DNA of 64,000 bases, from positions 1 to 64,000 of the forward strand of contig NZ_JAAHHG010000004.1 of the NCBI RefSeq assembly GCF_010692555.1. The letters run 5' to 3'. The position numbers and the translations under genes were made by a program. This document shows, one piece after another, positions 8,662 to 36,144 of this stretch (position 1 is its first letter; each line of letters starts with the position of its first letter). Below the pieces are notes generated by a model. It was not told the DNA's origin. It made no database searches and saw only the letters and a program-made list of their open reading frames with translations. The stretch is from Okeania sp. SIO3B5 (GTDB lineage Bacteria; Cyanobacteriota; Cyanobacteriia; Cyanobacteriales; Microcoleaceae).

Positions 8662-9033
8662 CGTCCGTGACAGCTTGTGGACTGGATAACGCCGACGTTG
8701 CCAGGTAGAAGCAGGAATAGAACAGATAATCATAGATTTATATAGATTATCATAGGTTTCTAAGGACGGAAATGTGAAAAAGAGTTTCGACTTAGTTAAC
8801 AATTTGCGCAATTTATCGACATAATACGCTAGTTCTCACCGGGAAGTAGTAACGAGGGTGAAATTTGTATCTTCTGTACTAATCCCTGCTATTCGCATTT
8901 CTGGCAGTCTATCTATATAGGCGTAGACCTATCCTGAAATCCAGCTTCCTACTAGGAACGGCGTAGTAAGGGTTTGAGGACTTTTTTAGTTATGTTAATT
9001 GACAAAGACTTAAATGTAAGTATAGAGTGTAGA

Positions 9034-9125
9034 GATGCGGTTGGCTTGACCGTTTCGGCTGTCGCCGACATGAAAATGCCTGTGGATGAGTAACCGCCGA
9101 CGGCCTCATAAGAAGCAGGAAGTAA
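9034..9125 (+). pseudogene. 3' remnant of another tnpB
   Basis: Reading through shifts gives AVGLTVSA, a roughly 20-bp insertion, CG, an in-frame stop, and ADGLIRSRK followed by TAA (9123-9125). This is the characteristic TnpB tail (VSACGLDNADG...). Only the last about 30 codons remain. Confidence 0.5.
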
Positions 9126-9255
9126 ACATCAACTTGTCGCATCGATGTGACGCTTTGTATCAGTTTTACGAAGCAGATATCTATAGCTGATGCTCAAATC
9201 TCAGAAGTTGAGGAGATGCTCACTCAGTTGAAACAAGAATAAACCAGTCAGGAAT

Positions 9256-9285
9256 GCCGATCGCTACCTCAGCGGTCGGTATTTT
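9256..9285 (+). terminator. Rho-independent terminator-like hairpin
   Basis: A 10-bp stem GCCGATCGCT / AGCGGTCGGT with two G-U pairs, loop ACCTC, followed by ATTTTAT. It lies 14 bases after the stop of the degenerate frame ending at 9242. It may be the relic terminator of a deleted gene. Confidence 0.45.
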
Positions 9286-9795
9286 ATCGTCAACCCACAC
9301 CAATATATATGTAGGGGTGGGTGAAAAAATTGGTTGGTGGGGGTAGGACACGGGGACGCAGGGACGGGGATAAGGGGGTTAACAGGCAAGGGTTTCGACC
9401 ATTTTATCTGAAGAAATTTTCTGCTGAAATTCAAGAAAATTTCAGTAAATTGATCCAAATAAGAGCCAATAAGTAGAGATAAACTAAATATAAAAAGCTC
9501 CTAAGTCTTAGCGTTCCTGACTTTTAGCTTTATTCAGCAAGCCCTATGTAGAAGACCATGGACTCAACAGAAACCTTAGCCCAAATAACAATAGGCCAAC
9601 TCAACTTGTGGCATCCCGGCATAATTGAGATACTAAAAATTTCCAATAGCTGGACTTGAGAGACTAATTTTTATGGGTTCATAAACATGAAACCCGATTT
9701 TTGGGCAGCCCACTCCGCTCAAGTTAATGGCCAAGACCTTCCCCTACTTTAATTTTAGTCAACCATCAACCTTATTAGCAGAAAAAATCTAGAAC

Positions 9796-10722
9796 ATGAT
9801 ATTATTCACCTTAGCTTCTACAACCTCAATTATAGTTGGTAGTATTTTCTTATTGACTGGTATTGCCAAAATTATAGAACCTTGGAAATTTATCCAACAT
9901 ATTGCCAAACTAGATTTAATAAATCCTCAATTAATTATACCGACTTCCCTCACATTTACTGCTATTGAATCAGCTTTAGGAGTTGCTTTAATCTTTAGAG
10001 TTTTACCAACAGTAATTATGCCTGTAAGTATTTTATTATTACTTAGTTTATCAATGCTTACTTACTGGAGTACATCAACTGGTAAAACTGAAGATTGTGG
10101 CTGTTATAATGGTTGGTTAGAAATTACTCCTACCCAAAGTTTAATTCTCAATGTTATTTATATTTTTCTGCTAATATTTGCTGAATTTTTTGGTCAATTT
10201 AAACCTACTGTGTTGTGGCAATGGCTGGTAGTATTAATAACTTTTATAATTAGCTATTCTTTAGCTGCTGGCTCCCTAGAATATATGCAAGAAAATGGTC
10301 GTCCGTATGTTGACTTTACCCCTTTACAAGAAAACAGAAAATGGCAATTAGAATGGCTGGGAGAAGATTCAGAATCTCTTATGTTTGGGTCTGTAATTGT
10401 GGTATTTATGAGTCCTGAATGTTCTCAATGTAAACATTGGTTAGGTGTGTTGAAGTTAGTGCAATGGCAAGATGATTTACCAGCAATAGTAGGATTAATA
10501 GATACTGAAAATATTCAAGAAGGTCAAGATTTTGTAGATCGTTATTTTTTGAATTTTCCTGTTGTTGCAGTAGATAAAAGGTTTTATAAAAAATTGAAGA
10601 TAGAGGTAGTACCTACAGCGGTTGTTTTGAAAGATGGAGTTATTCAAGAAAAATGGATTGGGTTAATGCCAATGTGGTTTATTAATAAAATTAATCAGGG
10701 GCTATCAACAGTATTAAAATAA
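9796..10722 (+). CDS. MauE/DoxX-like membrane protein with C-terminal thioredoxin-like domain
   Basis: 308 residues. Four hydrophobic helices lie in about 5-25, 45-70, 72-92 and 112-134, with a fifth at about 140-160. Between helices the motif DCGC (Cys101, Cys103) matches the MauE family, which supports periplasmic disulfide chemistry in methylamine dehydrogenase maturation. The C-terminal part (about 195-308) resembles a thioredoxin fold with a CSQC motif (Cys209-Cys212) and a cis-Pro-like VVPTAV. A membrane electron carrier feeding a thioredoxin-type domain, comparable to VKOR or CcdA fusions, is likely; the substrate is unknown. No convincing ribosome-binding site precedes the ATG. Flanks are transposon remnants and no methylamine genes are nearby, so the Mau pathway itself is not implied. 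Confidence 0.7.
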   Translation: MILFTLASTTSIIVGSIFLLTGIAKIIEPWKFIQHIAKLDLINPQLIIPTSLTFTAIESALGVALIFRVLPTVIMPVSILLLLSLSMLTYWSTSTGKTEDCGCYNGWLEITPTQSLILNVIYIFLLIFAEFFGQFKPTVLWQWLVVLITFIISYSLAAGSLEYMQENGRPYVDFTPLQENRKWQLEWLGEDSESLMFGSVIVVFMSPECSQCKHWLGVLKLVQWQDDLPAIVGLIDTENIQEGQDFVDRYFLNFPVVAVDKRFYKKLKIEVVPTAVVLKDGVIQEKWIGLMPMWFINKINQGLSTVLK

Positions 10723-13720: not shown

Positions 13721-14719
13721 TTATTTTAGCAAACCTTGTCTGGCAAAACTGTCAATACCCTGTTGTGAGTTGAGAACACCTAACTCTTCAGCCAGTGAAA
13801 TCACACCAGAATAGTCAATGCGGCTTAAATTGACCTCGTCCGTCACAGCACAGTCAGCAATGACTTCGCGAGTTTTGGGGAAGCCAATATATTCAAGCAT
13901 TGTTTGCCAAACCTCCAATTCTGAGTTAGCAAACCAGCGCACTGGTAAGGGAAACACATCAGCAAAAAATTCTTGCTGTTGGGGACTCAACTCAGTGTAA
14001 ATACACTGAGCTAGATTTGTAAAAATACTATGATGAGCCATTTCATCCTTTCTGTGAGTATCAACTACTAAACGGTTCATTGGTTGAATATCAGTATCCT
14101 TAGCTAATAAATTTAAGTAGTCGCTAATGAACACTTCCGAAACAGTAGCAGTAGCAATTTGAACTAAGATTTTTTGCCAAGGTTCAGAATATTTCCCTTG
14201 TTCGAGGATCATCTGTTTGACTAAGTTAAAGCTAGGCAACTTGAGTGACTGAAGTCCGCGCTGCTCTCGTGTAATTCGACAAGCTTGCATTACCAGCAAT
14301 ATATGGTAAGCTTCATCTACAAGAGTATCGCTAGCAATTTGTCGCCCGACTCCATTATCAACTCCTGGTACTTCCTGATAGATGATGTGGTTACAAGCAG
14401 GAGAAACAACTTTTGATTCAATATCAACAGTTTTCTCGTTGTAAGCTATCCAACCACAGGAGAGAATTTTTTGCTGTATATTGAATGGTGCTCCCAAGAA
14501 TGCAGGATGGTCTTTAAAGGGTAACAGGTCACTTCGGAAGTCATCTCTAGTTGTGTCAAATGCTAGCTCAGGGTTATTTAAGTCTAGGTTATGACTTTTG
14601 GCTTGTACAACTTGAGCGCGACGCGACCAATTATGCACCATTTTGTTGAGTAGTTTGCGACTATGAGAAATTTCTTGAGTTGGAGTAGTAGATTTTTGGT
14701 TTCTTATTACTATAGTCAT
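13721..14719 (-). CDS. AurF-like diiron N-oxygenase
   Basis: 332 residues. The spacing and identity of metal ligands fit the AurF/CmlI diiron aryl-amine oxygenases: Glu101 (DIESK), Glu136 and His139 in DEAYH, Glu195 (TVSEVF), and His222, Glu226 and His229 in THRKDEMAHH. These positions are almost the same as in Streptomyces AurF as I remember them. The family oxidises aromatic amines to nitro groups, though many cyanobacterial members have no known substrate. AAGGAG 8 bases before ATG 14719 supports the start. There is no biosynthetic cluster around it; the neighbours are a glutamine amidotransferase and a surface beta-propeller protein. The substrate is therefore open, while the fold and cofactor look secure. 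Confidence 0.82.
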   Translation of the reverse strand: MTIVIRNQKSTTPTQEISHSRKLLNKMVHNWSRRAQVVQAKSHNLDLNNPELAFDTTRDDFRSDLLPFKDHPAFLGAPFNIQQKILSCGWIAYNEKTVDIESKVVSPACNHIIYQEVPGVDNGVGRQIASDTLVDEAYHILLVMQACRITREQRGLQSLKLPSFNLVKQMILEQGKYSEPWQKILVQIATATVSEVFISDYLNLLAKDTDIQPMNRLVVDTHRKDEMAHHSIFTNLAQCIYTELSPQQQEFFADVFPLPVRWFANSELEVWQTMLEYIGFPKTREVIADCAVTDEVNLSRIDYSGVISLAEELGVLNSQQGIDSFARQGLLK

Positions 14720-17708: not shown

Positions 17709-19217
17709 ATGGACTCTAATTTACTGAATATCTTCAATAAAGAATTAACTTCTCAACAACAGGAATGGTACAAAGTTTTAGCTGAATATATTATTCATCA
17801 AGCAAAGAATACTCCCCTAACCATTACTGAGTTAACAACAAAATTAGTGGGAACTCGTTCAATGTCTGAAGATACTGCTAAAGATTTTGCTGAGTCTCTT
17901 ATTTCTAGAGGAAGGACTGCTAAAGTATCTGCTGCTACATTAACAAAAGAATTGGAGAACAATGGATTAATTGAAAAAGGACCGGTTGAGACAGATAAAA
18001 ATTCAGCAAGAAGATTTTTGGATAATTTAGAAAAAAAAAAATTAATTACAATAGATCATTGTTCAGGTAGAAGTGGCAATATATGTACTCTTAATTTCTA
18101 TATTTATAGCGGACAGACTTTAGAAGGTGTTGTTCCTGCGCAAAATCCTCTATATATCAAAAGAAATGCTGATAGTATTTGTGAAGAATACTTAACTTTT
18201 GGCATGATGAACAATCAAAGCCGAGCTTTTTTAAAGATTAAATCACCACGATATACAGGAAAAACTTCTTTATTGATACGTTTAAGAGAATTTGCTAAGA
18301 AAAAAGATGCCGCAGTGGGTTTGATTGATTTAGAGGGTCATCAATTTTCATATGAACTATTTATAGATGGTGAAAGCAATGAGGAAAACAAAGAAAAATA
18401 TCAGCAATTTTTAGACACTTTTAAAAGAGTTGTAGAACAAGAGTTTAATTCTCACCTGAATTCTTACAGACCAGGTTTTTCTTCGCCTAAATGGGGCAAT
18501 ATTTCTCTTGCAGAAAAATTTACTGAAGATTTAGAAGAAAAAATTTTCAGTCCTATACAGAAACCGAAAGTTTTACTCATAGATGGTATTGATATAATTC
18601 TAGGAACACATCTACAAGATCCTTTTCTTCGGATATTAAGAACTTGGTGTGAGCAAAAAATGAAGAGACTTAAAAATAGTTCTTCTATTATTTTTCCTAA
18701 TATTATTATTGCATTTTCAACAGAATCTTACTTTGATAGGGAGTCTCCTTTGCAAAATGTGGGTACAGAAATCGAACTTCCTAAATTTACAGACGATCAG
18801 ATCCTTAGTTTAGCTGGATTATATGGTTTAGTTTGGCATGATGGCTCAGAAAGTGCAAGTTCCTTAAAACATTTTTTAAGTGGAAATCCTTATTTAATTA
18901 ATATGGCTCTTTATGAAATAAGTAGAAAAAATATTGATTTAGAAACCTTTAAACAACAAAAATTGTTTCCTAATAGTCGTTTCTTAAAACATCTCCGTAA
19001 GATTGTAGAGAAGATTGAAAAATGTAAAGAATTAGAACAAACTTTTTGTAATTGGCTTCAACAACAAGACTCATATCTTGATGAAAAATCGAAAATACAA
19101 TTAGCTAAATTAGGAGCAATTGAGTTTGAAAATGAGAATAATATGATCCAACCCAAAATACCTTGTCAGCTCTATGAACAATATTTTAAGCAGCAATTTT
19201 TAAATCAAAATTCCTAA
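17709..19217 (+). CDS. AAA_35-type P-loop ATPase with N-terminal winged-helix-like domain
   Basis: 502 residues. About 1-140 are helical with a winged-helix look (LTKELENNGLIEKGPV...ARRFLDNLEKKKLITI). About 150-500 form an AAA_35-like STAND/AAA ATPase: the lead YIKRNADSICEEYL, Walker A SPRYTGKT (179-186), and Walker B VLLIDGIDII with the acidic residue before the second Ile. In cyanobacteria such ATPases are often signal-transduction or conflict regulators. It opens a set of four close, co-directional genes; the next starts 9 bp after its stop. AAAGG lies only 2 bases before the ATG, so the ribosome-binding site is poor. Its likely job is to sense or assemble with the following fusion protein, which has a related ATPase domain. 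Confidence 0.75.
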   Translation: MDSNLLNIFNKELTSQQQEWYKVLAEYIIHQAKNTPLTITELTTKLVGTRSMSEDTAKDFAESLISRGRTAKVSAATLTKELENNGLIEKGPVETDKNSARRFLDNLEKKKLITIDHCSGRSGNICTLNFYIYSGQTLEGVVPAQNPLYIKRNADSICEEYLTFGMMNNQSRAFLKIKSPRYTGKTSLLIRLREFAKKKDAAVGLIDLEGHQFSYELFIDGESNEENKEKYQQFLDTFKRVVEQEFNSHLNSYRPGFSSPKWGNISLAEKFTEDLEEKIFSPIQKPKVLLIDGIDIILGTHLQDPFLRILRTWCEQKMKRLKNSSSIIFPNIIIAFSTESYFDRESPLQNVGTEIELPKFTDDQILSLAGLYGLVWHDGSESASSLKHFLSGNPYLINMALYEISRKNIDLETFKQQKLFPNSRFLKHLRKIVEKIEKCKELEQTFCNWLQQQDSYLDEKSKIQLAKLGAIEFENENNMIQPKIPCQLYEQYFKQQFLNQNS

Positions 19218-19226
19218 ATTAGAATT

Positions 19227-22200
19227 ATGAGTACTGAAAACTTTTTTAACTGTGAAGGTGGATGGGAAACTAATCCACATAATTATGTATCAAGAAAAGC
19301 AGACCGAGAATTGTTAGATTACTGTTTAAACTTTCAACTAAGAAATCCCGTTTTTTTCCTTCTAGCTCCTAGACAAATGGGAAAAACGACTTTAATGAAC
19401 CAGATTATATCTCAACTAGAAGAAGAGGAAAAAATAGCCACTATTTCTATAAATGTTCATCTTTGGGATTATATTAATGAAGAAGAACTATTTAATACTT
19501 TGTTATTTAGAATAGTAACAGCAGTACCTCAGCTCAAAAATATTGAAAGTGAAATAATAGAGTCTTGGAACAAGTATCCAGGAATTATCTTCTCAGAACG
19601 TTTTTTACATATTTTATCAGTAAAAATTTATCCGAAATTAAAAAATGTCAAACTCATTATTTTTATTGATGAAGTTCAATCTTTAGTCAGATTAAAATTA
19701 CAAGATAAGTTTATTAGATTTTTGAAAACTTTTGCTGAATTCAATAATGAAATCAGAAATAAACTAAATTTTGTTTTAATTGGAGTTGCTAAACCTTCCG
19801 AGTTTACACTTAATGCGGATATAAGATTTAATGGAAAACAAATAGAGTTAGAGGGTTTATCAGGTGAATGTCTGCCTTTACAAAAAGGGTTAAAAGCTAT
19901 TACAACAGAACCCAGTCAAGTTATAAAAAGGGTTTTGTTTTGGACAGGTGGACAACCTTTTTTAACTCAGTATATGTGTTATTTATTACTGGATGATTAT
20001 TTTTATATTAGCCAAGATTTTGAAAAAGCGGTTGATGGTTTTATTCGAGATAAATATATAAAAAATTGGAGAAGTAAAGATAAACAGTCTCATTTAACAG
20101 GGATAGAAAACTACTTTGTTAAATTTGAAGATAGTCAAATTGATCGCCAACTTCAACTTTTAAATTATTATTATCGAATTTTAATTAATGGACCACAAAA
20201 GTTGGAAAGTAAAAATGTTCTTCAAGAAGATTTATTAATGTCTGGGTTAGTTGTTAAGGTGATTGAAAACAATCAATATTTCCTGAAAGTTGCTAATCCT
20301 ATTTATGAAAATATTTTCAACGCTGAATGGACTGATGAAATTCGTAAAATCTTGAATTTAGCTAGTGTAACAAATGCAAATCGATCGGCACAAACAGAAT
20401 TAAATATTGCGGAATTAGATAACTTTGGTGCGATTAACAAATGCTTCACAATTTTGCAGCAAGAACTGAAGCCATTTGTCAAGCAAAGAATGGATAAATA
20501 CTTAGGAAATAATTGGCGAAATCATCGTGAAGTTAGAATGATTGTTCGTCCTCCCGATGATAAATCTCCCATCACAATTATTGATTACCAAAAATTATTA
20601 ACTCTCATTATTAAATATTGGGAGGATGTTTTTATTAATGTCTTTAATAATAGAGACAAATGTGAAATTGAAGCACTATTACAATTTGGCGATCAGGAAG
20701 AAAAACAAAGGGCTGATTTTGAAGATGATTTTACAGTAAAAGTTCTCAATACTATAGCCTATTTACTCAGTACAACTGGTCATAAAAGTAAAGTAAAAAC
20801 AATTGATGAATTAATGATGAATAAATACCCTCAAAAGCAAAAGAGGAATTATTATCTAATAAGTAATAGAGAAAATACTTTAGGCTATGAGAAGTACATA
20901 GAACAGGAGAATAATATAGGAGAAACAGATATAGCTAGTCGTATTACTAATATTCTCAATCAACGTCATCCTCGTACTAAAAAAGTGAGAAAGCTGATTA
21001 AAAAACTTAACTTCTTACTATCTGAATTAGAGAATATGGAAACAGTTTATAGTCGGTTGATTAATACCATTAATGACCCATCAGTTACGACAAAGTTGCG
21101 TGAATTATTTCAGATTTTTGTGGGAATTAATAGAAAAATTCAAGAAGTTAAACAAACATTAACTAAACTAGATAAGAGATTTTCTCGTGAAAATTTGACT
21201 ATTACTTTTGTTGGTAGTGCAGGCCAAGGGAAAAGTCGTTTTATCCAAACTTTAACAGGATTAACAAAAACAGAAGTTCCTGATGGAACGATTCATAACT
21301 GTACAGAGGTCAAAGTAATAATTGCTCATTCTACTAATCATCAAACTCGTGGCGAAGTTTATCTTCATACTCCAGAATCTTTTATTCAAGAAAATATCGC
21401 TCCTTATTATCCAATGCTTAATTTAGGCAAGGCACCAACAACATTAGATGAATTTATTAATCATCCTTTGCCTAAGTTAAAAAATCCCGATGCCAGAGCT
21501 AAAGTTTATTATGAATATTTAGAAAAATGTAAGAATCATTACTCTGAATATCAGGCTTTACTCCAAGAAAATTCTCCTAAACCTATTGGTAAAGATGAAA
21601 TCAGAAAATATGTGGCTCAAACTGATGAGAATAATGATAGAACTAATTTTAGCTATTTAGCAGTCAAAGAAGTAAAAATTTACTGTCAATTTCCTCATGA
21701 AGATGTGAGGCAAATTACTTTAATCGATCTGCCGGGATTAGGGGATACAGTATTAGGATATAGGGAAACTTTACGGAGAAGTCTAGGACAAGATGTAGAT
21801 TTTGCTCTCTTTGTTAATATGCCTAAAGGGAGAGTTTTACAGGAAGAAGACTATGAACTTTTTGATACTGCTAATCAAGCTTTACCTGAATTACCAATTG
21901 AAAAATGGTCATTTTTTATCTTAAATGAAGTGAAAAATCCGCCACCGGGGTTAGGTATAGCAGATAATCGTCAAGTTTGTGAAGAAACTAAACGTCGCAT
22001 TGACAAAGAACGACAAATTCAGGTAGCTAAATGTATGATTGCTGATTGTGCAGATACTAATGAAGCTTCTAATGTATTATTGGAAGTTTTAAATTACTTA
22101 GAAACTCATATTTTAGAGTTAGACGATCGCTCTGTATCGATCGTTAATAAATCTATTGAACAATTAGAAAAAGAAATTAAAACTTTCCTAGAAAAAGCAC

Positions 22201-23144
22201 GTCAAGCATTCAGAGTTGCTCCTAAATATCAAAATGAGAATATGTTATTTTACGAGCTTGCAGACAAACTAACACGCAAAATCAGTAAAAACTTACACAA
22301 ATTAACTCAGGAAATACGTCCTCAGACTTTGATCGTAGAAGAAAATAAAAAGGATACGAAATTTTTTCAAACAGCTACCAAAAATATTATCAAAAAATGT
22401 CTTGAAGACACAGGGGTTCATTCACCTGAGCAAATTGATTATATACGTTTTGACATGGAATCAGGAACAGGATGGATTAGTGTTTTAGAGCGTTGTATAG
22501 ATGAATTAAGAACTTATATTAGCAATAAATTTAACTCTTTTGATAGTGATTTTCAAATGTATGTAGAACAAGTAAAAAACCAAATTGCTGATGCTTTAAC
22601 TGATACCGATCTAGGCAATATAACTACTGCTAGAGGGATAGATTTTTTGGAATTTATGACCAGAGAAATTCCTGAATACCTTCCTACTCTTAAAGTAGCA
22701 TTTGAAAAATTAGTTTCTTTTAAAATGACTTATGAACATCATTTAGAATATCTGATTCTCCAAGCTTTAGAAGAAGAATTAAATCCTAACCCTGGTGATG
22801 TATTTAACCCTATATTTAACCCTGCAGGAAAATCAGATGAAGAAAATATTCAGATAATTCACAAGATTCTAGTTGTGAAACATCGCAATACAATTTCTAA
22901 ATGTAGACAAGCTTTAGAAAAGCTAGAAGGTATGCCTAGTATAATTATCTATGGTAGAGCCAATCGCTTTGTAGATGAAGTTATTCGTTCTGAGGGGATA
23001 AGGAATGATTGGCTAGTTCTACTTCAGGAATGGAGTTCACAAGTTTTCCCAGATCACTTTGGGAAGGGAATTAGTCAAGAGAAACAAGAATGGGAAAACT
23101 CGATTCAAAAGGCTTTTTCTCTTAGTACATTAGAGAAAGTTTGA
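19227..23144 (+). CDS. AAA_35 ATPase / HEPN-like / dynamin-type GTPase fusion
   Basis: 1305 residues. Residues 15-360 are an AAA_35 ATPase, with Walker A APRQMGKT (47-54) and Walker B LIIFIDEVQ (Asp148-Glu149). Residues about 385-545 resemble the Swt1-type HEPN module (INKCFTILQQELKPFVKQRM...IKYWEDVFINVF...VKVLNTIAYLLSTT), but the usual R-x4-6-H catalytic pair is not evident. About 590-1050 hold a dynamin-like GTPase, with G1 GSAGQGKS (663-670) and G3 DLPG (834-837); G4 is uncertain (LNEVKN). The remainder is helical. No membrane segment is visible. An ATPase sensor and a dynamin motor in one chain is unusual. Close linkage to the genes on both sides suggests one complex. The domain calls are good; the HEPN call is tentative. 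Confidence 0.75.
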   Translation: MSTENFFNCEGGWETNPHNYVSRKADRELLDYCLNFQLRNPVFFLLAPRQMGKTTLMNQIISQLEEEEKIATISINVHLWDYINEEELFNTLLFRIVTAVPQLKNIESEIIESWNKYPGIIFSERFLHILSVKIYPKLKNVKLIIFIDEVQSLVRLKLQDKFIRFLKTFAEFNNEIRNKLNFVLIGVAKPSEFTLNADIRFNGKQIELEGLSGECLPLQKGLKAITTEPSQVIKRVLFWTGGQPFLTQYMCYLLLDDYFYISQDFEKAVDGFIRDKYIKNWRSKDKQSHLTGIENYFVKFEDSQIDRQLQLLNYYYRILINGPQKLESKNVLQEDLLMSGLVVKVIENNQYFLKVANPIYENIFNAEWTDEIRKILNLASVTNANRSAQTELNIAELDNFGAINKCFTILQQELKPFVKQRMDKYLGNNWRNHREVRMIVRPPDDKSPITIIDYQKLLTLIIKYWEDVFINVFNNRDKCEIEALLQFGDQEEKQRADFEDDFTVKVLNTIAYLLSTTGHKSKVKTIDELMMNKYPQKQKRNYYLISNRENTLGYEKYIEQENNIGETDIASRITNILNQRHPRTKKVRKLIKKLNFLLSELENMETVYSRLINTINDPSVTTKLRELFQIFVGINRKIQEVKQTLTKLDKRFSRENLTITFVGSAGQGKSRFIQTLTGLTKTEVPDGTIHNCTEVKVIIAHSTNHQTRGEVYLHTPESFIQENIAPYYPMLNLGKAPTTLDEFINHPLPKLKNPDARAKVYYEYLEKCKNHYSEYQALLQENSPKPIGKDEIRKYVAQTDENNDRTNFSYLAVKEVKIYCQFPHEDVRQITLIDLPGLGDTVLGYRETLRRSLGQDVDFALFVNMPKGRVLQEEDYELFDTANQALPELPIEKWSFFILNEVKNPPPGLGIADNRQVCEETKRRIDKERQIQVAKCMIADCADTNEASNVLLEVLNYLETHILELDDRSVSIVNKSIEQLEKEIKTFLEKARQAFRVAPKYQNENMLFYELADKLTRKISKNLHKLTQEIRPQTLIVEENKKDTKFFQTATKNIIKKCLEDTGVHSPEQIDYIRFDMESGTGWISVLERCIDELRTYISNKFNSFDSDFQMYVEQVKNQIADALTDTDLGNITTARGIDFLEFMTREIPEYLPTLKVAFEKLVSFKMTYEHHLEYLILQALEEELNPNPGDVFNPIFNPAGKSDEENIQIIHKILVVKHRNTISKCRQALEKLEGMPSIIIYGRANRFVDEVIRSEGIRNDWLVLLQEWSSQVFPDHFGKGISQEKQEWENSIQKAFSLSTLEKV

Positions 23145-23185
23145 TCGAATTAGAATTATATCAATTAAATCAAGGGTAAATCACT

Positions 23186-24217
23186 ATGGAATTGGAAATC
23201 GCGGACAAAGAAAAACTACCCAAACCAAAGGTAAAGTTAAGCGTGGCCTCGCTGGGACCAAGTGGAGTGGGTAAGACCTCTATTTTAGCTGTTATCAACA
23301 AATATTTTCAAAGTGATTTCACCAGAACTGACTTTAAGGTGATCATCGATCAAGAAAGTTTTGCAACCATCAAAGAGCATGAGGAAGGACTGGAGGATTT
23401 AGTCAAAGATTTTGATGCAGTATCTCGAGGACTACCATCTACTGAGGATGCAAAAAATATTAACTTTATTCTTGTTAGAGATAAATGGAGATCGAGAGAT
23501 GCTTTAGGATTAGAGTTTTTGGATATTTCTGGGGGATGGTTACAGAAAGATTCATCAAGCAAATATTACCAAAAATATTTGGATCAAGTAGTAAATAGTG
23601 GTGCAGTTATTATTCCTATTGACACCTTAGCTTTAATGGAGGAAGACGGAAAATATCATCAACAGCTAAACGATCCTGAATCAGTGACTAAAATGATTGC
23701 CAGAGCTTATGATAATTTACCAAAAGATGAAGAAAGATTAGTACTTTTTATTCCCGTAAAATGCGAAACTTATGTCAAAACTGAGAGAAATATGGAGCGA
23801 TTAGTTAAAGAAGTTCACAAAGGGTATGCAAAATTAATTTATGATGTTCTACGTCCGAAAACAAATGTAGCAGTAGTTATTACTCCAATACAAACCGTTG
23901 GTTGTGTAGTTTGTGGAGGACCAGATATTGATATTGAGACTAGAGAGTTGAAAGGATGGCTTTTAAACAAGACTAGATTTGATGCTCCAATGGAATCTCA
24001 ATGGGAAGATCAACCCCTACGCTATATCATGCGTTTTCTCATTCATCAATATATTAAACAACAAAGAACAGGTTTGTTTGGTCAAGCTTTTTATTCCTGT
24101 AACGATCTTTTGAAAGCAAATAACGATCTATATGAAGCTTTACGTCGTTTTTCTCAAGGTCGAATTAAAACTCCACCATTTGAGATTATCCAAGGTCATG
24201 ATTTATTAAAAATTTAA
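23186..24217 (+). CDS. TRAFAC-like P-loop GTPase
   Basis: 343 residues. The P-loop GPSGVGKT lies at 24-31, a G3-like LDISGG at about 112-117, and VKCE (191-194) may serve as the NKxD-like G4. It resembles the small GTPases found in NTP-dependent conflict operons (double-GTPase type) more than Ras-like or translation GTPases. There are no transmembrane helices. AAGGG lies 9 bases before ATG 23186, and the gene starts 41 bp after the fusion gene. It may act as the switch controlling the fusion protein. An ABC or kinase identity is unlikely because the signature motifs are absent. Orthology to a named family would need a profile search. Confidence 0.72.
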   Translation: MELEIADKEKLPKPKVKLSVASLGPSGVGKTSILAVINKYFQSDFTRTDFKVIIDQESFATIKEHEEGLEDLVKDFDAVSRGLPSTEDAKNINFILVRDKWRSRDALGLEFLDISGGWLQKDSSSKYYQKYLDQVVNSGAVIIPIDTLALMEEDGKYHQQLNDPESVTKMIARAYDNLPKDEERLVLFIPVKCETYVKTERNMERLVKEVHKGYAKLIYDVLRPKTNVAVVITPIQTVGCVVCGGPDIDIETRELKGWLLNKTRFDAPMESQWEDQPLRYIMRFLIHQYIKQQRTGLFGQAFYSCNDLLKANNDLYEALRRFSQGRIKTPPFEIIQGHDLLKI

Positions 24218-24262
24218 TAGATAATAATAGGCAAAAATTTATAAAACACCTGGAATAAATTA

Positions 24263-25117
24263 ATGATGAATATTTTCGTTCGTAGTCGTGGAGTTGAAGC
24301 TAACACAGATTATACATGGGTAGAAGTTACAGAAACAACCCAAGAAGTTATTGATAACTTTCCTGATTTGTTTCAGGATGAATCTACCAATTTAATTTAT
24401 AGTGAAAAACCGTCCGTGGTTTTATCTCGTAGAAATAGTAAATTACTGTTACTTATTACTGCTATTCAACCTACTGATAGAGGAGATTTCTATAAGCGAC
24501 AGATTCGTATTTCTGTCGGTTGGATAGGTGAAGATTCTGCTGACAATGAAGAGGCTTTTCGCCTGTTAGCAGCTCGTGCTTTGGACGATGAAGAAAACCC
24601 AGAATTAACTGTGGAAATTGCTGAGGCTATACCTTTAGGCGGTATTTATGGTTTTGAAGCCGATTTTAATAAATTATTAGGTTTAATTGCATCCTGTCAA
24701 ATTCAACATAAAGTTGATAGTCAACAATTAACAGAACAAGAGGAAAAATTTAACAAACTCGCACAAATATCTCCTGATACAAAACAGTCTTTAGTGCAAA
24801 TAATTAGACAATTTAAGTTACCAAAACGAGAAGGAGTGTTAGTTGTGTTTACAACTAATAAAAGAGAAGGAAGTCTCAGACAAGCGGAGGTTTGGCGAGG
24901 AATTTCATCCTTAGTAGAATCACCACATTGGAAGGCTTATTATCCTTTTCCTGACCCAATTCCGGCTGAAATTGCTGAGGGTTTGAATTATCAATTTACA
25001 CTTTTTCAGTTATTAAAATGTATTAATTCATCTTGGGGTAATTGGCTAATTGATAGCATAGAAAATCAAGTTAATCATAAACTTGAATCAAATAATATAG
25101 ATAACCTAAATAAATAG
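24263..25117 (+). CDS. Unknown protein, fourth member of the NTPase gene set
   Basis: 284 residues and soluble. I do not recognise a family. The N-terminal half is beta-rich (TWVEVTETT, KLLLLITAI, IRISVGWIG), and residues about 130-200 are helical. The presence of LLLLITAI and VLVVFTTNKREG strands suggests an alpha/beta fold, with no catalytic motif. It starts 45 bp after the GTPase gene; ATG 24263 or 24266 can serve. Its stop codon TAG is formed by the last two bases of a MITE target duplication plus the first G of the element. Before insertion the frame would have continued about ten codons (NLNNLFGLKYKNI). It is probably the GTPase's partner or adaptor, inferred from position only. Confidence 0.65.
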   Translation: MMNIFVRSRGVEANTDYTWVEVTETTQEVIDNFPDLFQDESTNLIYSEKPSVVLSRRNSKLLLLITAIQPTDRGDFYKRQIRISVGWIGEDSADNEEAFRLLAARALDDEENPELTVEIAEAIPLGGIYGFEADFNKLLGLIASCQIQHKVDSQQLTEQEEKFNKLAQISPDTKQSLVQIIRQFKLPKREGVLVVFTTNKREGSLRQAEVWRGISSLVESPHWKAYYPFPDPIPAEIAEGLNYQFTLFQLLKCINSSWGNWLIDSIENQVNHKLESNNIDNLNK

Positions 25118-30528: not shown

Positions 30529-33500
30529 CTATAACTCAATAGGAATAGCTACAGTAAAAGTGGTTTTGCCTGGAACAGATGTAAAATCAATCTTTCCCTG
30601 ATGTTTATTGATAATATTTTTGACAATCTCTAACCCTAAACCACTACCTTCTCCGGCAGGTTTAGTAGTAAAGAAAGGCTGAAAGATTTTATCCTGAATC
30701 TCTAGGGCAATACCAGCTCCAGAATCTGTGATTCCCACAACAATATTTTGATTTTCCACCCGCACTTCAATATCTATTTTTCCCTTTCCATCCATCGCTT
30801 GAATTGCATTGTGAATCAAGTTTGTCCATACTTGCACCAGTTCATCAGCATAGCAAAGAATTTCTGGAATATTTTGATAGTGGCGAATCACTTTCACACC
30901 CTTTTTTAAATAGTTGTGGTAAATCTCCAGTACGGTTTCAATACCGTCAGTAATCACTGCTGGTTGTTTTTCTCCACTGTGATCGTAACGGGCGTAACTC
31001 TTGAGGGCAAAGACAATTTTTGAGGCTCTTTCCACAGCGTTGGAGATATTTTGACTGTTGGTGTAGAGGCGAGCGATATCGTAGGCAATTTGTACAATTT
31101 CGTGGACTTGGGGAGTTTGTAACAAAGATATTTGAGATTCAACACTATGATGTAATCCGGCTTCGGTTAGTAGGTGAGATAGTTGTTTGGCATTGGTAAT
31201 ATTATGAGACTCAAGTTGTTTAGTGACTGTGCGCTTAATTTGACGTTTTTCCCTGGTACTGAGACTGGGTTGCTTACTCACAGCAAGTTGTAGGAAACTG
31301 AAAAATTTGGTTTGTTGTTGTGGGTTGAGCAGGGGTAAAAGTTGAGGTAATTCAGAGAAAGATTCTTCTAGCGCTTTGTCGGTGTTACCTATGGCGGCAC
31401 GAATGGCACCCAAAGGGGTGTTAATTTCATGGGCAATTCCGGCTACCAGTTGTCCTAGAGCTGCCATTTTTCCGGACTGAATTAATTCATCTTGGGTGGT
31501 TTTGAGTTCTTGTAAAATTTGGGTGAGTTGTTGATTTTTTTGTTGCAATTCCTCTGTGCGTTCAGTAACTTGTTGTTCGAGAGTGCGGTTGTAGTTTTCT
31601 AGTCGGTTGTAAAGTTGGGCATTTTCTATGGAGATAGCAGCTTGGGCAGTCAGGAGGTTGAGAATTTCTATGTGTTCTGGGGTGAAAGCTTCTGCGCTCA
31701 AATGATTTTCTAGGTAGAGAATGCCAATCAGTTTTCCTTGATTAATAATAGGAGTACAACAGAGGCTTTTGGGTGGCTGTTGAATCAGGTAAGGATCTGC
31801 GGTGAAGGTTTTGTCTTGTTTGACATTGTTGACGATCGCGATATGTTGAGTTCGTTTGACGGTATTAATGATGCTAATGGGTAAGTTGTCGGTTTTGTCA
31901 AGGGTAATAGTTGATAGGTCACATTTTGTCCGGTCGCATTTGGCAGCTATTTCCAAATTGTCGGATTTGTTCAAAATTAAGGCTCCTGTGTCAGCTCCGG
32001 CGTTTTCTAGGACGATGTGCATTATTTTACAGAGTAAGGTATTGAGTTCGATTTCCTCAGAAAGAGCATGAGAGGCTTTGATTATGGTTGCCAGGTCAAG
32101 ATTGTCAGAAATTCCGCTTGAGGTATCGGTGATGGTTTGCGTTGTCTTCAGAATCATTGTTTCACCTTTTGATTGGGAAATTTGATTGTTGAGAATAGGA
32201 GCAAGTAGTTGAGGATATATTTGTTCTAGTTGGTCAGTTTTAGCTTTAGCCCCCCAATGAGCATAACAATAGTATGCTTCCTGCATATAGGTAGCAGCGA
32301 TTTTTTCTTTCCCCCAATTCAGGTAAAATTTGGCTGCCAATTCATTCCCTAATGCCTCTTGTTGCAGATATTCGTTTTCTTTAGCGAGGGCAATAGCGCG
32401 GTCGTACAATTCTATAGCTTCTAACGTTTTTCCCGAAATTCGAGCAATTTCTGCTTCTACCAAACAACACAAATGCAGAAAATTTTCCGGACAATTCTGT
32501 GCCCAAATGGCAAGTTGTTTTTGATAAGTCGAGATTTTTTCCCCATATTCTAATTTTTGACTATCTGTTGCACTGGAATAAAGTGATGTCATCAGTAGTG
32601 CATAAATAAATAAATGATGGGCATAAGGAAGCAGTCCTTGAGGTGCAACGTTAATAATTTCTGCATCAGCCTCCAGGCAACATTCTAAGGCTTCCTCTAA
32701 TCGCTCTTCAATGAATAGAATTTGAGTTTTCAATATCTTATAAATGCAAATGACTTGCCAGTTTTTATGCTGGTTACATTTTTGCAAATATTCAGATTCT
32801 ACTAACTCGGTTGTTGTTCCCATCAATTGCGAAAAGAGCATCTGACCGCCCATGAACAGGTCGATCGCCCACTGATTTTTGTATTTTTGAGTGAAGGCTA
32901 ATGATTCGCTGATTTCTTTCTGTAGTTTTTCTAGGGGAATACCTTGATAAAAGCGGCAATACATATTATGACCAAAAGCATAAGCTGCATATTGCAAGTT
33001 GCTTGATTCTAAACCGACTCTATAAGATGAAAGATAATCTTCTGTTGCTACTTTGAGAGGATGAGACCAATGTCTGAGAGAACTACCAATCATCAAATAA
33101 GCAACACTCTCAGCAGATTTATTATTAAAGGTTTGAGTTAACTTGATAGTTGCATCTAGCAACTTATCTGTATTTTGATAATTATTCAGAGCATATCCTC
33201 GCAAACCACCAAAGGCAGGATAGATATATCCAACTTCTGGTGTATTTCCGTAGTTCAAGCATAGGTTAACTGCTTTGGCGCAAATGACAGACCATAATCT
33301 TTGATGAGAACGATAGGTTGGTGGTCCCAAAGTAATTAACAGCTTGATTGCCATTTTTTGTTCTGGTTGAGTCATTACAGGCAATTCAGTTAGGGAAGTA
33401 AATGGTAGATTTTTAAAGGTTTCTGTAGCGATCGCCAGTTCTACATTTATTACTTGTTCAAAATTGTCTTCGGGAAGGTCTACATTAATTAATGCCAGAC

Positions 33501-36144
33501 CTCGGCGGCCTGCTTGAATAGCTTCTGGATATTTTGCTTGCAGGGTGTATTGGATAATTGACAGATTATATATTTCAGCTTTTTCCATAGGAGTATGAGC
33601 ATTTTGCAATATGCGTTCTATCCACATTTCAGCGGTTTCGATGTTGCCATTCAAATATTCAACTTCTGCTCTTTCTTTATATAGAGAAAAGCTGAGTTGA
33701 TAATTGTGTCGCCAGCAGTCATCGGGTAAAAGTTCGATTCCTACTTGGATGTAGCTCAAAGCTCCCGCATAAGCTGTGGAGGCTTTGGCTTTAGTTCCTG
33801 CACTTAAATTGAGTTTAGCTAGCTCCTCTCGTTGTAGTAGTTTGGTTATTAATGTTCGACCAATATTTAGATGGTTGACGATTTCAAAAATTCTCTCTTC
33901 CTGTTCGGTAGCTGATAATTTTTCCATAAGTAAGGTGCCAATTTCAAGATGTGTGGCTTGTTTTTTCTCTTCAGAAATCAATGAATAAGCTGCTTGTTGA
34001 ACGCGATCGTGCAAAAAGCGATAGTTTACTGAAATTGTTTGGTGTTCTTTTTTTTCGTTCTGTATTCGGTGGAAAAATTTATAGTTCTGACTTTCGGGAA
34101 TGATAAATCCTTCTTGCAGTCCTCGCCACAAATCTGTTGCTACTTGTTCCTGAGTGCTTTCGCATACTACTGCTAAAGTTCCTAAATCAAATTGGTTACC
34201 AATACAAGCTGCTAGTTTCAATACTGCTTGAGTTGCTGGTGGTAGTTTCTTTAACCGTCCTACCATAAATGTTACTACATCATCCGTCAGCACCAACTGC
34301 CATACCTCGGTCAAATCACACTGCCAGTATCCCGTTTCCACCTCGAAGGTGATATAACCATCCTCATGCAAACCTCGCAAAAATTGAGTTGTAAAAAATG
34401 GGTTTCCCTTAGTCTTTTGATACACTAACTCAGATAAAGGTACAGCAATTTCTACAGAACACAGCAATGTATCGGCAACTAAACGAGTGACATCCACCTC
34501 ATCCAAAGGAGCCAGAGTTAGGGTATCAATCTTCGCACCCTGTTTACTAATTTCATCCAGAGTCAGCATCAATGGATGAGCAGGGAAAACCTCGTTATCG
34601 CGATAAGCTCCCAACACCAGCAAATAACCTGTTTCCGAATCGTCCATCAGTAATTTCAACAGGTTTAAGGAAGCCGAATCCGCCCACTGTAGATCGTCCA
34701 AAAAGATAACCAGGGGATGTTTTTTGGTAGCGAACACTTGCACAAACTTACCAAACAACAAGTTAAAGCGATTTTGCCCTGCATTGCCAGAAAGTTCGGG
34801 AACTGGAGGTTGTTTGCCAATAATCCGTTCGAGTTCCGGAATGACATCGATGATGACTTGTCCGCTTTCTCCGACAGCTTTGAGGATTTTTGCCCGCCAA
34901 TTGGTTAAATCTGCATCCGACTCGCCGAGCAATTGCCCCATCAAATTTCGGAAAGCTTGCACGAAAGCGGAAAAGGGAATGTTGCGGTTAAACTGGTCAA
35001 ATTTACCTTTGATAAAATAGCCGCGTTGCTTAACTATAGGTTTGTGAACCTCGTTGACAACGGCTGTTTTCCCAATCCCTGAAAATCCTGCCACCAGTAA
35101 AAGTTCTGAGTTGCCAGCTTTCTGTACGCCTTCCTGTCTCCCCTTTTCCCCATCTCCTTGACTAACTCGTTCAAATGCTGCTAATAATTGGGCAACTTCC
35201 CGTTCCCGTCCATAGAGTTTTTCTGGGATGAGGAAGCGATCGCAAATATCCTGCTCTCCCAACTTAAATTGGATAATATCTCCCCTAGTTTTCCACTGTG
35301 TCAAGCATTGCTCTAGATCGCGTTTTAAACCCAAAGCACTCTGATAACGTTCTTCTGGATTCTTTTTCATTAATCTAAGCACCACTGCCTTCAAGGCTTC
35401 CGGGATTTCCAACTGCTCGCTGCTCGCGGGAAACTCCACTTCTTGCGCAATGTGGCAATGTACTAATTCCATGGGATCGTTAGTTTCAAAAGGTAACTTC
35501 CCGGTTAAGAGTTCAAAAAATGTCACACCAAGGGAATAAAAATCTGTGCGATAGTCGATACCTCGGTTCATCCGTCCGGTTTGTTCTGGAGAGATGTAGG
35601 CAAGGGTTCCTTCGAGAACATTGGGATTGATAAATTGTTGTTGTTCTTTTGGCAGTAAACTGGAGATGCTGAAATCTATTAGTTTGACTTGGAAGCTTTC
35701 GGGGTGAATCAAGATGTTCCCTGGTTTGATGTCTTTGTGGATGATGCGTTTTTGATTGAGGTAATGTAGAGCTTCTGCTAGTTGGATAGCAACGATCAGA
35801 AATTTAGTGAGACTTCGGTCTGAGTACTGCCAGTAGTTAGGGAGAGAAATTGCTTCATTATCGGGCATAACCAAGGCATAACCATGACCATAATCTTCTA
35901 AGGCTAGGGGTTGCACCACCGCAGGGTGTTCTAAATGACGGGCGATCGCATATTGATTGCGGAACTGAACTAACTCATTAAAATTGGGATAGGGGTTCCG
36001 TAAAACTTTGATAATCACAGGTTGGCGTTTCATGTCGCGCAGGGAATAGTCAGTTGTATCAGTTTCTCTAATTGCTTTGTAGACAAGGGTGCGAGTTCCG
36101 ATATAAATTTGGTCGGTTTGTTGATAATTAGTTAAGTTCAGCAT
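30529..36144 (-). CDS. Giant Ser/Thr kinase-ATPase-GAF-histidine kinase (HstK family)
   Basis: 1871 residues. The Ser/Thr kinase domain lies at about 10-285, with Lys46, catalytic Asp138 in HKDIKPGN, and Asp157 replacing DFG as DFS. An AAA ATPase follows, with P-loop GFSGIGKT (353-360) and DDLQWAD Walker B. A long helical, TPR-like region runs from about 680 to 1320, then a GAF domain (about 1350-1500) and a histidine kinase core with His1572 in IAHEINTP. Its ATPase boxes include NLIHNAIQAM, DSGAGI and GSGLGLEI. The domain order matches the dual Ser/Thr-His kinases of heterocystous and filamentous cyanobacteria. It has no transmembrane segment and no receiver. Two paralogues lie at 47428-53967 and at the right edge of the window. 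The signal is unknown; the GAF domain suggests a small ligand. Confidence 0.92.
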   Translation of the reverse strand: MLNLTNYQQTDQIYIGTRTLVYKAIRETDTTDYSLRDMKRQPVIIKVLRNPYPNFNELVQFRNQYAIARHLEHPAVVQPLALEDYGHGYALVMPDNEAISLPNYWQYSDRSLTKFLIVAIQLAEALHYLNQKRIIHKDIKPGNILIHPESFQVKLIDFSISSLLPKEQQQFINPNVLEGTLAYISPEQTGRMNRGIDYRTDFYSLGVTFFELLTGKLPFETNDPMELVHCHIAQEVEFPASSEQLEIPEALKAVVLRLMKKNPEERYQSALGLKRDLEQCLTQWKTRGDIIQFKLGEQDICDRFLIPEKLYGREREVAQLLAAFERVSQGDGEKGRQEGVQKAGNSELLLVAGFSGIGKTAVVNEVHKPIVKQRGYFIKGKFDQFNRNIPFSAFVQAFRNLMGQLLGESDADLTNWRAKILKAVGESGQVIIDVIPELERIIGKQPPVPELSGNAGQNRFNLLFGKFVQVFATKKHPLVIFLDDLQWADSASLNLLKLLMDDSETGYLLVLGAYRDNEVFPAHPLMLTLDEISKQGAKIDTLTLAPLDEVDVTRLVADTLLCSVEIAVPLSELVYQKTKGNPFFTTQFLRGLHEDGYITFEVETGYWQCDLTEVWQLVLTDDVVTFMVGRLKKLPPATQAVLKLAACIGNQFDLGTLAVVCESTQEQVATDLWRGLQEGFIIPESQNYKFFHRIQNEKKEHQTISVNYRFLHDRVQQAAYSLISEEKKQATHLEIGTLLMEKLSATEQEERIFEIVNHLNIGRTLITKLLQREELAKLNLSAGTKAKASTAYAGALSYIQVGIELLPDDCWRHNYQLSFSLYKERAEVEYLNGNIETAEMWIERILQNAHTPMEKAEIYNLSIIQYTLQAKYPEAIQAGRRGLALINVDLPEDNFEQVINVELAIATETFKNLPFTSLTELPVMTQPEQKMAIKLLITLGPPTYRSHQRLWSVICAKAVNLCLNYGNTPEVGYIYPAFGGLRGYALNNYQNTDKLLDATIKLTQTFNNKSAESVAYLMIGSSLRHWSHPLKVATEDYLSSYRVGLESSNLQYAAYAFGHNMYCRFYQGIPLEKLQKEISESLAFTQKYKNQWAIDLFMGGQMLFSQLMGTTTELVESEYLQKCNQHKNWQVICIYKILKTQILFIEERLEEALECCLEADAEIINVAPQGLLPYAHHLFIYALLMTSLYSSATDSQKLEYGEKISTYQKQLAIWAQNCPENFLHLCCLVEAEIARISGKTLEAIELYDRAIALAKENEYLQQEALGNELAAKFYLNWGKEKIAATYMQEAYYCYAHWGAKAKTDQLEQIYPQLLAPILNNQISQSKGETMILKTTQTITDTSSGISDNLDLATIIKASHALSEEIELNTLLCKIMHIVLENAGADTGALILNKSDNLEIAAKCDRTKCDLSTITLDKTDNLPISIINTVKRTQHIAIVNNVKQDKTFTADPYLIQQPPKSLCCTPIINQGKLIGILYLENHLSAEAFTPEHIEILNLLTAQAAISIENAQLYNRLENYNRTLEQQVTERTEELQQKNQQLTQILQELKTTQDELIQSGKMAALGQLVAGIAHEINTPLGAIRAAIGNTDKALEESFSELPQLLPLLNPQQQTKFFSFLQLAVSKQPSLSTREKRQIKRTVTKQLESHNITNAKQLSHLLTEAGLHHSVESQISLLQTPQVHEIVQIAYDIARLYTNSQNISNAVERASKIVFALKSYARYDHSGEKQPAVITDGIETVLEIYHNYLKKGVKVIRHYQNIPEILCYADELVQVWTNLIHNAIQAMDGKGKIDIEVRVENQNIVVGITDSGAGIALEIQDKIFQPFFTTKPAGEGSGLGLEIVKNIINKHQGKIDFTSVPGKTTFTVAIPIEL

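Follow-up and report, generated by a model that had tools for sequence, protein, structure and literature searches.

The four-gene locus and its three-gene core

The window analyzed here is the first 64,000 nucleotides of contig NZ_JAAHHG010000004.1 of the cyanobacterium Okeania sp. SIO3B5 (RefSeq assembly GCF_010692555.1), and at positions 17709-25117 it holds four open reading frames on the forward strand, separated by gaps of 9, 41, and 45 bp. An earlier note, made from the sequence alone, had described four close co-directional genes with these same gaps, and the coordinates of the reading frames agree with it. Gene 1 (17709-19217, 502 aa) encodes a STAND-like ATPase recognized by a match to the AAA_35 profile; gene 2 (19227-23144, 1305 aa) is a fusion of an AAA_35-type ATPase, a Swt1-like HEPN domain, and a dynamin-like GTPase; gene 3 (23186-24217, 343 aa) encodes a predicted TRAFAC GTPase resembling DO-GTPase2; and gene 4 (24263-25117, 284 aa) gave no Pfam match, so that the earlier description of the fourth protein as unrecognized stands. 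A search of the four proteins against NCBIfam returned nothing useful.

Comparison with other genomes shows that the conserved unit consists not of the four genes together but of genes 3 and 4 plus the portion of gene 2 that encodes the dynamin. Gene 4, as the most diagnostic component, was used as the query over 386 sampled cyanobacterial genomes and was found in 24, where the usual order is a dynamin-like protein of ∼725 aa, then gene 3, and then gene 4. A profile of the dynamin was positive in 30 of the 386 genomes, including all 24 with gene 4, and in most trios the dynamin carries neither an AAA nor a HEPN part. Complete trios number 40 over all loci read, every one of them co-directional and in the same order, with both gaps at or below 130 bp in 33 and median gaps of 22 and 18 bp; given this constancy of order and strand, the linkage is not due to chance. 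Because gene 1 and the AAA-HEPN part are missing from most relatives, the four genes as a unit, which the earlier note had proposed, are ruled out; the three-gene core occurs mostly without ATPases and HEPN.

Six dynamin-positive genomes fall outside the gene 4 set. One has a trio with a short gene 4 (locus L130); in another (L128) the dynamin is accompanied by a DO-GTPase1-like protein and by a large protein of unknown kind; a third (L129) has a dynamin without genes 3 and 4; and two have dynamin loci that run into contig edges (L131 and L132). In the sixth (L133) the dynamin gene is broken: it lies in two frames at 8726-10637, beside photosystem genes, and is apparently a pseudogene of the trio family. 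At three further loci from genomes of the same genus (L210, 5406-15300; L211, 6734-19396; L213, 8026-18964) giant kinase-AAA-GAF-histidine kinase genes of 1770-1860 aa, of the same kind as that at 30529-36144 of the window, stand between the dynamin and gene 3, and L210 also has a broken second copy. Since the close relatives L214 and L217 lack them, we judged these genes to be insertions and not parts of the trio.

Gene 2 carries a predicted dynamin core

The C-terminal part of gene 2 (20907-23141), the first core component, matches Dynamin_N at residues 659-864 with an E value of 5e-5, which is below the family cut-off, and its identity is settled by the predicted fold. An AlphaFold model of this part, with a GTPase domain and a long helical stalk (predicted local distance difference test score, pLDDT, of 85.6), has the bacterial dynamin-like protein BDLP (2j69) as its best match in the PDB, with an E value of 1e-13 and a probability of 1.0; the top matches, with E values from 1e-13 to 1e-9, also take in SynDLP, IniA and, slightly lower, the DLP1/2 pair. 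The global template modeling (TM) scores of these matches are low (0.26), which could reflect a different conformation of the stalk. The GTPase motifs include the P-loop GSAGQGKS (21213-21236, with Lys-669) and the G3 motif DLPGLGD (21726-21746). Across 25 aligned dynamins, the P-loop residues Gly-103, Gly-108, Lys-109, and Ser-110, the switch residue Thr-133, and Asp-274 and Gly-277 of G3 are invariant. The canonical TKxD motif is not at its expected place in the alignment, where an asparagine alone is invariant.

The core thus has in common with BDLP, SynDLP, DynA, IniA, and DLP1/2 the GTPase domain and long helical stalk, but the window dynamin is only ∼12% identical to them, lacks the canonical TKxD, and belongs to a family whose genes lie close to gene 4 and to a gene for a small GTPase, being in the window also fused to AAA_35 and HEPN parts. 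Among these relatives, SynDLP is a cyanobacterial membrane remodeller that binds thylakoid lipids (PMC10104851), and DynA of Bacillus subtilis has a role in phage resistance, delaying lysis after infection (PMC8844932). The dynamin core may bind membrane and assemble in a GTP-driven manner. The Eleos/LeoA systems also have a dynamin-like GTPase, and the PADLOC models LeoBC and LeoA match the P-loop region weakly (E 0.03-0.07), but there is no full-length match, no common partners were seen, and we do not take the weak matches as membership.

Separately from gene 2, the window has an ordinary bacterial dynamin of 719 aa at 612-2771 (Dynamin-like_hel_bact, E 5.9e-57), which pairs with a second Dynamin_N match at about 3158-3637 within a 559-aa frame. 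Dynamin_N matches in the genome as a whole total 22.

Gene 3 is a predicted DO-GTPase2-like switch

Gene 3, the second core component, has the P-loop GPSGVGKT (23255-23278), the G3 sequence LDISGG, and VKCE at the likely NKxD position. DO-GTPase2 (PF19993) is matched by 27 of 28 members of the gene 3 family at E ≤ 0.1, the best at 8.4e-13, in line with the separate TRAFAC-like GTPase of the earlier note. As the window copy itself scores under the cut-off while its relatives match, we call it a divergent DO-GTPase2-like GTPase. About one-third of the gene 3 alignment has a glutamate after DxxG, which may correspond to the conserved Walker B glutamate of DO-GTPase2; the window copy has a glycine there. 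The gene 3 profile also aligns with the G domains of Rab and FtsY.

Gene 4 is a new family, usually with a membrane anchor

Gene 4, the third core component, is a new protein family, built of a conserved N-terminal domain of ∼220 aa and a variable C-terminal tail. Among the copies at loci without AAA_35 neighbors, 36 of the 39 that could be scored have a strongly hydrophobic 19-residue segment following the N-terminal domain, so the protein is usually, by prediction, a single-pass membrane protein. The tail beyond this segment may be absent or may consist of a coiled coil, a WD40 domain (L044), or five He_PIG immunoglobulin (Ig)-like domains (L215, E 3.6e-55). The window copy has no transmembrane helix.

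The gene 4 fold is well predicted (pLDDT 85.7), and its nearest PDB matches include FLCN, the Lst4 longin domain, KICSTOR, and TagF of the type VI secretion system (T6SS), several of which are longin-type GTPase regulators. We tentatively describe the N-terminal domain (residues 1-230 of the window copy) as weakly longin-like, a lead from the model and not an assignment. Comparison of the model with viral structures gave nothing significant, and a search for sequence relatives in the PDB gave none of use for gene 4, gene 1, or the N-terminal part of gene 2. With MglA-MglB and Rag-FLCN the trio has in common a small TRAFAC/Ras-like GTPase encoded beside a possibly longin-fold protein, but this resemblance is weak and structural only, with no sequence match.

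AAA_35 genes form an accessory layer

Gene 1 matches AAA_35 with an E value of 3.9e-47 and has the P-loop SPRYTGKT at residue 179, its N-terminal ∼135 aa lying outside the match. The N-terminal part of gene 2 matches the same family at residues 42-269 (19350-20033, E 2.7e-11), with the P-loop APRQMGKT at 19365-19388. The earlier note had named two AAA_35-type ATPases with a dynamin fused to one of them and had placed the P-loop lysines of the fusion at positions 53 and 669; profile matches and the predicted dynamin fold bear out the architecture, and both lysines are found in P-loops, Lys-53 in APRQMGKT and Lys-669 in GSAGQGKS.

Among the loci read, AAA_35 genes lie within the operon at five only, namely the window, L041, L201, L221, and L062, and they are an accessory layer added to the core. 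The larger arrangement, which by the earlier note would be refuted by a lack of co-conservation, does recur in other genera within the taxonomic family of the window: L041 and L201 encode both AAA_35 ATPases, HEPN, and the fused dynamin, and L221 has a decayed form from which HEPN is absent. In L041 and L201, gene 1 lies upstream of the AAA-HEPN-dynamin fusion (1300 and 1306 aa, respectively), and the locus includes genes 3 and 4 as well as a fifth gene, which joins AAA_35 to a von Willebrand factor A (vWA)-like region. The vWA part gives a profile match in L062 (E 9e-4), and in L041 a degenerate metal ion-dependent adhesion site can be made out by eye. The window lacks this fifth gene, a distant relative of which is encoded elsewhere in the same genome. 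L221 combines gene 1 with an AAA-dynamin fusion in which no HEPN match was seen; an additional AAA fragment lies in front, and the gaps are wide. Of this layer, L062 carries the AAA-vWA gene alone.

The transmembrane segment of gene 4 is found at none of the five AAA_35-coupled loci compared with 36 of 39 others (Fisher p = 5e-5, relatedness ignored). In the dynamin tree the AAA_35 loci form two separate, fully supported groups, one of the window, L041, and L201 and the other of L221 and L062, the latter nested in a clade with 0.998 support that also has AAA-free members. Hence the gain of AAA_35 and the loss of the anchor arose twice or moved as a cassette.

Residues 405-515 of gene 2 (20439-20771) match HEPN_Swt1 with an E value of 1.7e-8 and 35.2 bits, over the cut-off of 27.5. 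The motif Rx4-6H is the active site of HEPN domains, and fusions of HEPN with AAA+ ATPases are known in restriction-modification (R-M) operons (PMC3710099). At the RNxxxH position the window protein reads GDQEEKQ (residues 488-494; 20688-20708); L041 and L201, together with six other aligned Swt1-like HEPN sequences, keep RN-x3-H, the two sister loci in the form RNEEAH. By the criterion of that paper, the window domain, having lost the motif, is predicted to be inactive as a ribonuclease (RNase), and an active RNase in the window was on this ground rejected. The HEPN-like module of the earlier note is thus a real Swt1-like domain, but it has lost the RNase hallmark. Gene 1 and the N-terminal part of gene 2 have their counterparts in cyanobacterial AAA_35/STAND-like ATPases and in Swt1-like HEPN-AAA fusions, where HEPN is joined to AAA+ as in Ava_2192 (PMC3710099); gene 2 differs from the latter in belonging, as far as tested, to a different AAA family, in its fusion to dynamin, and in the lost HEPN motif.

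Distribution and genomic context

Several copies are present in the window genome. Besides the trio of the window there is a plain one on contig C331, while C666 has a dynamin and C721 a gene 4. At the C721 locus (L040, 150-3308) the gene 4 paralogue follows the genes for an AAA_21 ATPase and for a DUF4276 protein, which form an OLD/PARIS-like pair. The dynamin occurs in 23 of 62 genomes of the taxonomic family of the window, and the lineages of this family are scattered in the dynamin tree. Plasmids of Nostoc, Stanieria, Calothrix, and others carry dynamin copies, and a Nostoc plasmid carries the trio (L138). Beyond Cyanobacteriota, Nonomuraea has the dynamin with gene 3 (8e-95) and gene 4 (2e-16), and on a linear plasmid of Streptomyces the dynamin is joined by gene 3 (1e-27) and by a gene-4-like protein (hhalign E 9e-6), which is probably a further trio. 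A scan of genome contigs with gene 3 alone gave one locus, a Lachnospiraceae contig with a distant dynamin and three gene 3 relatives. Taken together, the plasmid copies, the presence in other phyla, the several copies per genome, and the scattered family lineages indicate that the module has spread horizontally. A phage or viral origin was also considered and was rejected, as nothing matched in phage records or viral contigs.

The dynamin family of the trio also adjoins DO-GTPase1-like proteins, in L128 and L137. In both, the DO-GTPase1-like gene beside the dynamin is followed by a large protein without a known family (1030 aa at 12687-15779 of L128 and 992 aa at 11412-14390 of L137), and the two are related (22% over 787 columns). 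They are possible counterparts of GAP1, the partner protein of DO-GTPase systems; as GAP1 proper they were rejected, the GAP1-N2 search and Pfam scans being negative. On the Nostoc plasmid pNsp_h (L140, 1-10652) a dynamin gene is oriented divergently to a cluster that comprises a vWA gene, three genes of the DO-GTPase-like kind, and genes for unknown proteins of 812 and 387 aa; this is another dynamin-DO-GTPase arrangement.

Matches of PADLOC families to the window genes were weak and mostly short ones to P-loops, none extending over most of a protein, and the best had an E value of 3.6e-5 over 34 residues. On the opposite strand, 3 kb upstream of the locus (13721-14719), the window encodes a relative of AurF-type p-aminobenzoate N-oxygenase (PF11583, E 1.7e-50).

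Discussion

A close parallel to the trio is offered by the DO-GTPase/GAP1 conflict systems, in which GAP1 is often fused to C-terminal transmembrane segments and sometimes to cadherin domains (Kaur et al. 2020, PMC7159879). Both have a DO-GTPase-type switch with its partner encoded directly downstream, the partner combining a constant N-terminal part with a variable C-terminal part that includes transmembrane and Ig/cadherin-like modules, and both share predicted membrane action and vWA proteins, the latter in sister loci of the window. The plan of a constant core with variable modules recurs in the trio as the gene 4 tails and the optional AAA_35, HEPN, and vWA parts. The trio differs in having no recognized GAP1, GASH, or FNIII component, and its constant third component is a dynamin, a term absent from PMC7159879. 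Gene 4 is a separate family: a search for GAP1-N2 (PF20013) in three genomes (G000, G157, and G320) and two plasmid records gave nothing, GAP1-N1 being covered by the general Pfam scan only, and gene 4 was on these grounds rejected as a GAP1. The resemblance to NTP-dependent conflict systems seen in the earlier note is sustained by the DO-GTPase2-like switch, the vWA fusions of sister loci, the variable tails, and the patchy, plasmid-borne distribution.

The gene content, order, and co-conservation, the families, the predicted dynamin fold, the loss of the HEPN motif, and the inverse pattern of anchor and AAA_35 are shown here; we infer that gene 4 regulates gene 3, as well as a direction of signaling, membrane remodeling, and a role in defense. 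Gene 4 would be a single-pass membrane protein whose variable tail beyond the membrane helix senses the trigger and whose cytosolic N-terminal domain, tentatively longin-like, regulates gene 3. Gene 3, as a DO-GTPase2-like switch, would license the dynamin-like GTPase, which would assemble on the membrane and then reshape, seal, or rupture it. Given that the window gene 4 has no anchor, that its dynamin has gained an AAA_35-HEPN part, and that a second AAA_35 gene lies upstream, sensing has in this variant probably shifted to the cytosolic STAND-like ATPases, and the HEPN domain may serve as a non-catalytic interaction or RNA-binding domain. We give an even chance to the module being a switch-controlled membrane-remodeling device of the same type as DO-GTPase conflict systems, which in the window would take its input from STAND-like AAA sensors in the cytosol. 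By analogy with those systems and with DynA (PMC8844932), the likeliest use would be surveillance of membrane-perturbing attack by phage or other mobile elements. A bolder form of this proposal, an undescribed mobile immunity class whose sensor, either transmembrane or cytosolic, signals by way of a DO-GTPase switch to a dynamin that remodels or ruptures the membrane, with modular input such that the anchored gene 4 can be exchanged for dynamin-fused AAA_35 sensors, is possible, at somewhat less than even chances.

Several observations weigh against such a device. The longin resemblance of gene 4 is weak (E values of 2.5e-3 to 0.2, probabilities of 0.1-0.77, and TM-scores ≤0.37 among the top matches), the window gene 3 scores below the DO-GTPase2 cut-off (E 0.0018; 18.4 bits for a cut-off of 27), and the pattern of anchor and AAA_35 comes from a small sample of five loci on two branches. 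No relatives were found in phage records or viral contigs. The proximity to known defense islands that the earlier note had suggested checking was not borne out: 104 neighboring proteins compared with PADLOC and Pfam, with no comparison to random regions, belong mainly to housekeeping families and include few defense-type matches. Among the first 25 families listed for these neighbors, those found by PADLOC at 1e-10 have at most two members each, chiefly PD-T4-6, and kinases appear in the Pfam tally.

The main rival is a role in membrane maintenance, where the module would repair or remodel plasma or thylakoid membranes under envelope stress, the gene 4 tail sensing the envelope, the dynamin patching, and AAA_35 adding energy-dependent control. 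It is favored by the presence of BDLP and SynDLP (PMC10104851) among the top structural matches, by the many loci that sit among housekeeping genes, and by a DO-GTPase beside psp genes that has been linked to membrane stress (PMC11237479). However, it would be unusual for a maintenance system to be so patchy (30 of 386 genomes), to be carried on plasmids, to extend to Actinomycetota, to have several copies in one genome that fall on different tree branches, and to differ in its tails, and we regard this role as somewhat unlikely. The FLCN, Lst4, KICSTOR, and TagF matches of gene 4 and the alignment of gene 3 with Rab and FtsY would also suit a polarity, motility, or secretion module, in which genes 3 and 4, as a Ras-like GTPase and its longin/roadblock regulator in the manner of MglA/MglB, target the dynamin to a particular site within the filamentous cell; yet motility, pilus, or secretion families are not prominent in the neighbor tally, and plasmid carriage and variable tails fit poorly, which makes this quite improbable. 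Abortive infection centered on HEPN, with AAA_35 sensing triggering an RNase and the dynamin secondary, would draw on the above-threshold Swt1-like domain, the RNEEAH of L041 and L201, and the known HEPN-AAA+ fusions in R-M operons (PMC3710099), but with GDQEEKQ in place of RNxxxH in the window and HEPN missing from nearly all core loci, including the AAA-dynamin fusion of L221 as far as matches were seen, its chances are very slim.

The component kinds of the trio are known and its logic resembles a known kind of system; the operon itself is apparently new to the literature, as no description was found of the dynamin-DO-GTPase linkage, of dynamin with HEPN, of gene 4, or of the AAA_35-HEPN-dynamin fusion in a search that left subscription papers and preprints outside, in keeping with the earlier remark that the AAA_35/dynamin fusion was not a known combination. 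So far, bacterial dynamins have mostly been known from single genes or gene pairs. The trio is a defined three-gene unit that links a dynamin with a sensor-like partner and a putative regulatory GTPase; it occurs on plasmids and in two phyla or more, and offers a concrete, testable case for switch-controlled membrane remodeling in bacteria. If the defense reading is true, the DO-GTPase conflict systems would gain a branch that uses dynamin, and Mx-type dynamin immunity would have a counterpart in bacteria.

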